A stretch of 38,385 nucleotides of DNA, taken from IMG/VR virus record IMGVR_UViG_3300042879_002665, positions 1-38,385 of that record; one strand, given 5' to 3'. The DNA is from a virus. Shown here one piece after another: positions 35,944 to 36,514 of the stretch (position 1 is the first letter of the stretch; every line of letters begins with the position of its first letter). Under the pieces are notes generated by a model. The model made no database searches. It saw only the letters and a program-made list of their open reading frames with translations, and was not told the origin of the DNA. The position numbers and the translations under genes were made by a program.

Positions 35944-35968
35944 AAAAAAACCCACCATTGCTGGTGGG
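35944..35968 (-). terminator. Intrinsic terminator of the tmRNA
   Basis: CCCACCA-GCAA-TGGTGGG stem with a tetraloop, followed by seven T on the minus strand (35950-35944). It closes the tmRNA transcript and possibly the whole tRNA-array transcript. Confidence 0.9.
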
Positions 35969-36185
35969 GGTCAATTCAGATGCGGGATGACCAATCCCCA
36001 CTGCTTCAGGCAGCACGACGCATTGGTGCGGCGTTTATAGTTGCCAACTTTGGCATTTAACGAGGGTTGTTGACTACCTCTCGGATATCTCCCTGTTGCT
36101 CGCTTCCCCCTGTCGATTCTGTTCGACCCCGTAGGTTTGAATGGAGTCGGGGGGATTCGCACCCCCGTGCAGTTGGGTAGTTTAC
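35969..36185 (-). ncRNA. ssrA: Permuted (two-piece type) tmRNA
   Basis: The acceptor piece comes first: T arm GGGGG-TGCGAAT-CCCCC (36166-36150), CGACTCC (36149-36143) and discriminator A. An 11-base spacer (36141-36131) follows, then the 5' acceptor strand GGGGTCG (36130-36124). The strands pair over 7 bp with G3-U70, the alanine identity pair. Next come a D-loop piece AATCGACAGGG, a PK1-like block CCGAGAGG...CCCTCGTTAAA close to the E. coli arrangement, and a tag frame at 36044-36006: GCA to TGA, encoding ATINAAPMRRAA. This RNA rescues stalled ribosomes with SmpB. The T loop (TGCGAAT) is unusual. Outer ends and the processing site are approximate. Confidence 0.92.
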
Positions 36186-36199
36186 AAAGATCAACGATA

Positions 36200-36514
36200 T
36201 CATGGTTTATTTATAAATTCTTGTAGTGAAGAACCTAAAGATGTCAAACGAGCATTCACTAACATTGCTTCTCCAGCAATTCTTTTAAGTTCTTTGTTTA
36301 CTTCTCCAATAATAATTCCTTTATCTTTGTGTGAATTGCTATACATTTGTTCCAATTCATCAATATCTGGTTTCATTGGAAAATGCTTCAAACAATCAGA
36401 TGCTTTTTTGCGAATTTCTCTAGGAACCTTTGGCGTTTTTTGAGCATCTAAAAGTTGAAAAAGAAATTCACGAGTATTTTTCATCGAAATGAACCATTCA
36501 TTTGGTAAAGTCAT
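36200..36514 (-). CDS. Small protein with MTLPNEW...NTREFL N-terminus
   Basis: 104 residues from ATG 36514, preceded by AGGAAAA; a longer open frame runs back through the tRNA-Pro gene and is not credible. MTLPNEWFISMKNTREFLFQLLDAQKTPKVPREIRKKASDCLKHFP resembles small proteins with a similar start and RxxA...L(K/R)H(Y/F)P spacing (BPSL0761-like), known from bacteria and phages with no known function. The C-terminal part is helical. It lies between the tmRNA and the tRNA array and is probably co-transcribed with them. Confidence 0.7.
   Translation of the reverse strand: MTLPNEWFISMKNTREFLFQLLDAQKTPKVPREIRKKASDCLKHFPMKPDIDELEQMYSNSHKDKGIIIGEVNKELKRIAGEAMLVNARLTSLGSSLQEFINKP

Follow-up and report, generated by a model that had tools for sequence, protein, structure and literature searches.

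Does a phage carry a complete, circularly permuted tmRNA gene, and would it use that gene for ribosome rescue? The question is raised by the minus strand of the virus record IMGVR_UViG_3300042879_002665, analysed here over its whole 38,385 bases (the window). Baseplate wedge families (gp6, gp25-like and gp53), a T4 baseplate hub protein, gp32 and a late-promoter transcription regulator were found in the window and, judged by the wedge, gp32 and regulator families, it is a fragment of a T4-like myophage. Its gp32 is ∼57% identical to that of a cyanophage and of a single-cell marine virus, and DNA similarity to named phages consisted of just short matches (27-37 bp), the best one being the T arm of the tmRNA. 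On the minus strand the locus comes after a tRNA cluster (Ile, Glu, Tyr, Asn, Thr, Pro) and before a holin-like gene. A small conserved ORF without a family match (36200-36484, minus strand; 94 aa from its ATG) adjoins it, its TGA stop codon overlapping the first paired base of the tmRNA.

Architecture of the tmRNA gene

A covariance-model search of the minus strand, the check proposed in the initial annotation of this DNA, matched Rfam model RF04321 over its full length (1-213) with 67.6 bits against a cut-off (GA) of 47 (E 4e-11), and ARAGORN independently called a tmRNA* with the tag AAPMRRAA. The next-best model, beta_tmRNA (RF01850), gave 38.5 bits, under its cut-off of 84; neither alpha_tmRNA (RF01849) nor cyano_tmRNA (RF01851) matched the window at the gathering threshold, and at E<=10 only the best clan member is reported. 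The parts of the gene are as follows:

36208..36215, minus strand: putative T4-type late-promoter-like motif TATAAATA, 6 nt upstream of the first tmRNA paired base
36142..36201, minus strand: acceptor piece (RF04321 and covariation; CCA not encoded)
36201-36196, 36177-36175 and 36172-36170, minus strand: P2 5' strands GATATC, CCC and CTG, in the acceptor piece
36166-36150, minus strand: T arm, in the acceptor piece
36149-36143, minus strand: 3' acceptor strand CGACTCC
36142, minus strand: discriminator A73
36131..36141, minus strand: intervening segment TTCAAACCTAC, 11 nt, between the acceptor strands
36124..36130, minus strand: 5' acceptor strand GGGGTCG, pairing with 36149-36143; G3-U70 is 36128/36145
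36084..36123, minus strand: D-loop-like stretch AATCGACAGG and P2 3' strands (RF04321, covariation)
36112-36110, 36108-36106 and 36089-36084, minus strand: P2 3' strands CAG, GGG and GATATC
36043..36083, minus strand: PK1 (stem a by covariation, stem b read by eye)
36083-36077 with 36066-36061, minus strand: PK1 stem a, CGAG(A)GG with CCCTCG
36074-36069 with 36048-36043, minus strand: PK1 stem b, GTCAAC with GTTGGC, by eye
36006..36032, minus strand: tag frame GCC GCA CCA ATG CGT CGT GCT GCC TGA, AAPMRRAA and stop (codons 36032-36009, stop 36008-36006)
36001..36013, minus strand: hairpin over the stop codon, CTGC 36013-36010 with GCAG 36004-36001
35969..35998, minus strand: second pseudoknot, GGG 35998-35996 with CCC 35986-35984 and GGTCA 35992-35988 with TGACC 35973-35969
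35944..35968, minus strand: intrinsic terminator CCCACCAGCAATGGTGGG, stem 35968-35951, then a T run

The half with the T arm and 3' acceptor strand thus comes before the 5' acceptor half in the gene, the intervening segment separating the two, which is the arrangement that defines a permuted tmRNA. The initial annotation had described a phage-borne, circularly permuted, alanine-type tmRNA, and this is well supported by RF04321, the tmRNA* call and covariation among relatives. Its details were also seen: a T arm and 3' acceptor strand preceding the 5' strand across an 11-base linker (36166-36124), a 7-bp acceptor stem with G3-U70 and discriminator A, a PK1-like block and an intrinsic terminator. 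Its limits for the gene, 35969-36185, hold the core, but P2 starts at 36201 and the terminator runs on to about 35944, and the complete tmRNA spans about 36201-35944. PK1 lies upstream of the resume codon, followed by a short tag frame ending Ala-Ala-stop; the PK1-to-resume spacing of 9-10 nt and the UAAAY-GCC context agree with the RF04321 consensus. A chance hairpin or an ordinary tRNA is ruled out by the RF04321 score together with the covariation. One feature that, as read from the sequence, counts against an intact gene is the T-loop of the window, UGCGAAU, with G at position 55; many relatives share it, and others have the usual UUCGAAU.

Conservation of structure and tag among relatives

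Relatives were gathered from viral contigs by patterns for the T-arm/acceptor strand, the P2/T-arm region, element A (an RNA in the intervening segment of some relatives, described below) and the tag, yielding 49 distinct parsed tmRNAs, window included. In an alignment of 36 distinct rows over 40 pairs, with the intervening segment removed, standard pairs occupy 1355 of 1440 cells (94.1%), compared with 83.0% on average, and 84.4% at most, in 500 shuffles and with 40-58% when the 3' partners were slid by 1-3 columns. Half of the pairs (20/40) changed on both sides, in 176 cells, against a mean of 57 and a maximum of 73 in the shuffles; because the shuffle control takes no account of kinship among rows, these figures are not probabilities. 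The acceptor and T stems are paired throughout (252/252 and 180/180 cells), as nearly are P2c (215/216) and P2a (106/108), with P2b weaker (61/108). Since the parser used P1 pairing (at least about 6/7 pairs), the 100% pairing of P1 is partly by construction, and the T-arm/acceptor scan pattern did include the 3' strand. The parser did not demand G3-U70, which is present in 36/36 distinct aligned relatives, as is A73; neither is lost in any parsed relative though neighbouring pairs vary. The acceptor partners themselves co-vary (GGGGATG/CATCTCC, GGGACCG/CGGTTCC, GGGTCCG/CGGATCC, GGGGCTG/CGGCTCC). Stem a of PK1 is paired in 137/144 cells with both-sided changes, and stem b of the second pseudoknot in 152/180, with both-sided changes in 3 pairs (40 cells). 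The stop-codon hairpin, paired in 36/36 rows, is invariant in sequence and so offers no covariation test. Every helix with variable sequence among relatives has both-sided changes, and the structure of the gene is conserved by compensatory change.

These data bear on whether the RNA might act mainly as a decoy, binding host SmpB, AlaRS or EF-Tu and thereby blocking host trans-translation. There is a precedent in mycobacteriophage DS6A, whose coding-less, TLD-only tmRNA-like RNA inhibits tmRNA, perhaps by titrating SmpB (PMC4131195), and a decoy would fit both the absence of an SmpB gene from 20 viral records, all possibly fragments, and two relatives (L088, L089) that retain the T half and element A and have GGTCGAGTAAATCGACC and a terminator-like hairpin in place of the coding half. 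A decoy would, however, have no need of conserved coding parts, and the tag frame, PK1, second pseudoknot and stop hairpin are conserved across the window and its relatives (49 tmRNAs), most with compensatory change; we therefore regard a decoy as quite unlikely. Much the same evidence makes it highly improbable that the gene is a passenger, captured from a host without benefit and heading to decay. Decayed copies do exist (L088 and L089, and L097 and L121 with a decayed T loop), which indicates that the gene is dispensable at times, but about 50 distinct copies are intact and covary strongly, and a tmRNA of another kind holds the same slot in other T4-like phages. This is a standard, unpermuted tmRNA with the tag ANTRAFAMAA, found in four T4-like contigs (L019, L016, L026, L027); that of L019 (5502-5868) scores 115.6 bits for RF00023, and protein matches between L019 and the window show many shared neighbours, identically ordered as far as gp33 and gp32. 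By this synteny, more distant T4-like relatives hold a standard tmRNA in the gene slot of the window's permuted one, which suggests that selection has repeatedly favoured possession of a tmRNA of some form. The locus is very probably an intact permuted ssrA gene of a T4-like phage, making a two-piece tmRNA that would serve ribosome rescue during infection.

The resume codon is GCC, in the conserved context UAAAY-GCC, so that the tag is the eight-residue AAPMRRAA. The tag frame originally proposed, ATINAAPMRRAA, ends correctly (GCT GCC TGA), but its GCA start falls in the PK1 3' strand GTTGGC (36048-36043), and a 1-nt difference breaks the upstream frame in relatives such as L082 and L086; its extra residues ATIN derive from PK1 or its spacer, a stretch of variable length in these relatives. 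The tag is conserved: the 49 tmRNAs carry AAPMRMAA (37), AAPMRRAA (10), GAPMRMAA (1) and AAQMRMAA (1). A tag pattern was used in one scan and in the parser, and the loci from scans without it carry AAPMRRAA, AAPMRMAA or a one-residue variant. Loci fetched by element B only (a second such RNA, described below) have tags of an eight-residue family mostly ending MAA (ANELAMAA, ANQLAMAA, ANEMAMAA, ANYMAVAA, ANYMAMAA, ANELAIAA, ANQMAMAA, AAPMAMAA).

Whether the end of the window's tag is unusual, as initially noted, depends on the comparison. Among 28 permuted tmRNA tags from a phylum sample of bacteria, L, V, I, Q or M stands third from the end and R never does (0/28), but most phage relatives end in MAA, an ordinary type, and the R of the window is therefore a local novelty. 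RRAA is unusual as a ClpXP-type end, a point that counts against a tag serving ordinary rescue. It could instead be, in line with the initial annotation, that the phage tag takes the place of the host's and lets rescued proteins evade their protease or pass to another; the dissimilarity to the sampled bacterial tags and their lack of an RAA end would suggest this. This we consider unlikely, given that MAA, a common ending, is found in most relatives and that one sampled bacterial tag of the 28 ends in RMAA. Moreover, the R may owe its presence to RNA structure, for both CGU codons of each of the ten R-type relatives are part of an extended hairpin that also takes in an ACG upstream.

Expression and the intervening segment

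Upstream of the tmRNA, the motif (T/A)ATAAAT, TATAAATA in the window, recurs at a constant distance in many close relatives, and other relatives have the gene directly after a tRNA-like 3' end, which points to a late promoter of T4 type in one branch and to transcription from the promoter of a tRNA operon in others. Late-promoter-like motifs are not enriched across the window (4 found, 5.5 expected), so support for a late promoter is positional only; no sigma-70-like promoter was found at the tmRNA locus. From an intact ssrA gene we would expect a single, probably phage-late transcript, folded so as to bring both acceptor strands together around a loop of 11 nt. This loop would be cut out by RNase P and 3'-end nucleases of the host, CCA would then be added, and the acceptor stem and P2 would keep the acceptor and coding pieces together. 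Charging by the host's AlaRS would depend on G3-U70 and A73 and, with EF-Tu and SmpB of the host (the probable source of SmpB, since none was found in the 20 viral records), the tmRNA would enter ribosomes stalled on broken mRNA, which would switch to GCC, add AAPMRRAA and be released at UGA. In a cell full of cut mRNA the phage would gain by keeping ribosomes free and marking unfinished proteins for degradation.

The intervening segment of close relatives is either 5-12 nt long or holds element A between similar flanks (TTC ... CAAACTAC). Element A is about 118 nt long in close relatives (about 87-124 nt overall) and was found in the segment of L004, L084-L086, L090, L092-L099, L116, L130, L133 and L148. 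It forms a tRNA-like cloverleaf with acceptor, D-like, anticodon-like, long variable and T arms, in which 230/231 cells pair and 17/26 pairs show both-sided changes (nine manually segmented sequences), figures that lean towards the fold because the segmentation was made by hand to fit it; folding z-scores are -3.2 to -4.0. Element A is without G3-U70 and a normal anticodon loop, and was called as a tRNA by neither ARAGORN nor Rfam; cmscan at E<=5 gave no credible family for element A or B except as an insertion in tmRNA. A stand-alone element A adjoins tRNA genes in L091 (about 1515-1605). Exact-pattern matches in bacterial genomes (L107, L108) fall in apparent protein-coding stretches without tRNA-like context and were rejected, as were L111-L113, likewise in apparent coding stretches. 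In L099 (529-916, minus strand) the segment consists of element A and a complete tRNA-Pro(UGG) of 66.1 bits, within an RF04321 match of 57.7 bits.

Element B, a structured RNA, measures about 68-95 nt and occupies the intervening segment in permuted tmRNAs with ANELAMAA/AAPMRMAA-family tags (L126, L132, L137, L139, L142, L145, L152, L165, L203-L229). Its hairpins have variable stems, with loop-loop (kissing-loop) complementarity CUGCAA/UUGCAG, and CUGUAA/UUACAG in L139, and it stands after the 3' acceptor strand of a permuted tmRNA in every element-B contig with enough flank. Long intervening segments occur in bacteria too (L230, with about 129 nt, and L200 are examples), and no tRNA was found inside a recognised tmRNA in 20 long or weak bacterial matches fetched, in most of which the segment was unparsed. 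We put at about even the chance that the intervening segment of phage permuted tmRNAs is a nested gene slot, from which the tRNA enzymes processing the precursor would release a second small RNA, the window representing the empty-slot state; as the comparison with bacteria is limited, the proposal applies to these phages. An RNA so released might possibly act on trans-translation or on precursor processing.

Relation to known tmRNAs

The idea that a phage copy is new does not stand: 53 two-piece tmRNAs in phage genomes, most from aquatic phages, were reported in 2022 (Buchholz 2022, PMC9004378), which makes the phage-borne permuted tmRNA an already known kind, and the tmRNA database holds 79 phage sequences (PMC11915505). 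Methylophilales phage Melnitz is, like the phage of the window, a T4-like aquatic myophage that has a permuted ssrA and presumably uses host trans-translation (PMC9004378). The Melnitz gene belongs to an alphaproteobacterial/SAR11-like type and comes with a glutamine riboswitch as well as a putative early promoter (PMC9004378), whereas the window gene has RF04321 as its best model, a late-promoter-like motif just upstream and the tag AAPMRRAA. It shares with the betaproteobacterial permuted tmRNA (RF01850) a permutation point in the acceptor region, the UAAAU-GCC resume context and the two-piece form, but has a shorter, different tag, reduced pseudoknots and a score below the cut-off. The TLD-only RNA of DS6A is likewise a phage-borne tmRNA relative (PMC4131195, PMC11915505) but has no coding part, unlike the window gene with its intact tag frame. 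The RF00023 tmRNA of L019 occupies the same slot upstream of gp33/gp32 among the same neighbouring genes, differing in being unpermuted and in its tag. Two further phages gave separate observations: Caulobacter phage CcrRogue (JX100814.1; L109, 568-886) has an unannotated permuted tmRNA of 88.2 bits for RF04321, with the tag ANDNAPFAVREAIAA read by eye, and in the crAss-like Cellulophaga phage phi14:2 (L110) ARAGORN called an uncertain tmRNA without an Rfam match and with the odd tag GSSVQKLAMVA.

What does look new is the set of RNAs in the relatives' intervening segment (element A, element A with tRNA-Pro, and element B), along with the standard tmRNA that occupies the corresponding gene slot of more distant T4-like phages; a literature search that covered few subscription papers found no paper on small RNAs nested in the intervening segment. 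A large family that appears previously undescribed joins the phage two-piece tmRNAs, and its conserved 8-aa tag gives mass spectrometry of infected cells or of field samples a specific peptide to look for. Two questions become testable through the exchange of standard and permuted forms in one slot and through the small RNAs nested in the gene of relatives: why phages need a ribosome rescue of their own, and what cargo the loop of a permuted tmRNA, otherwise discarded, can hold.
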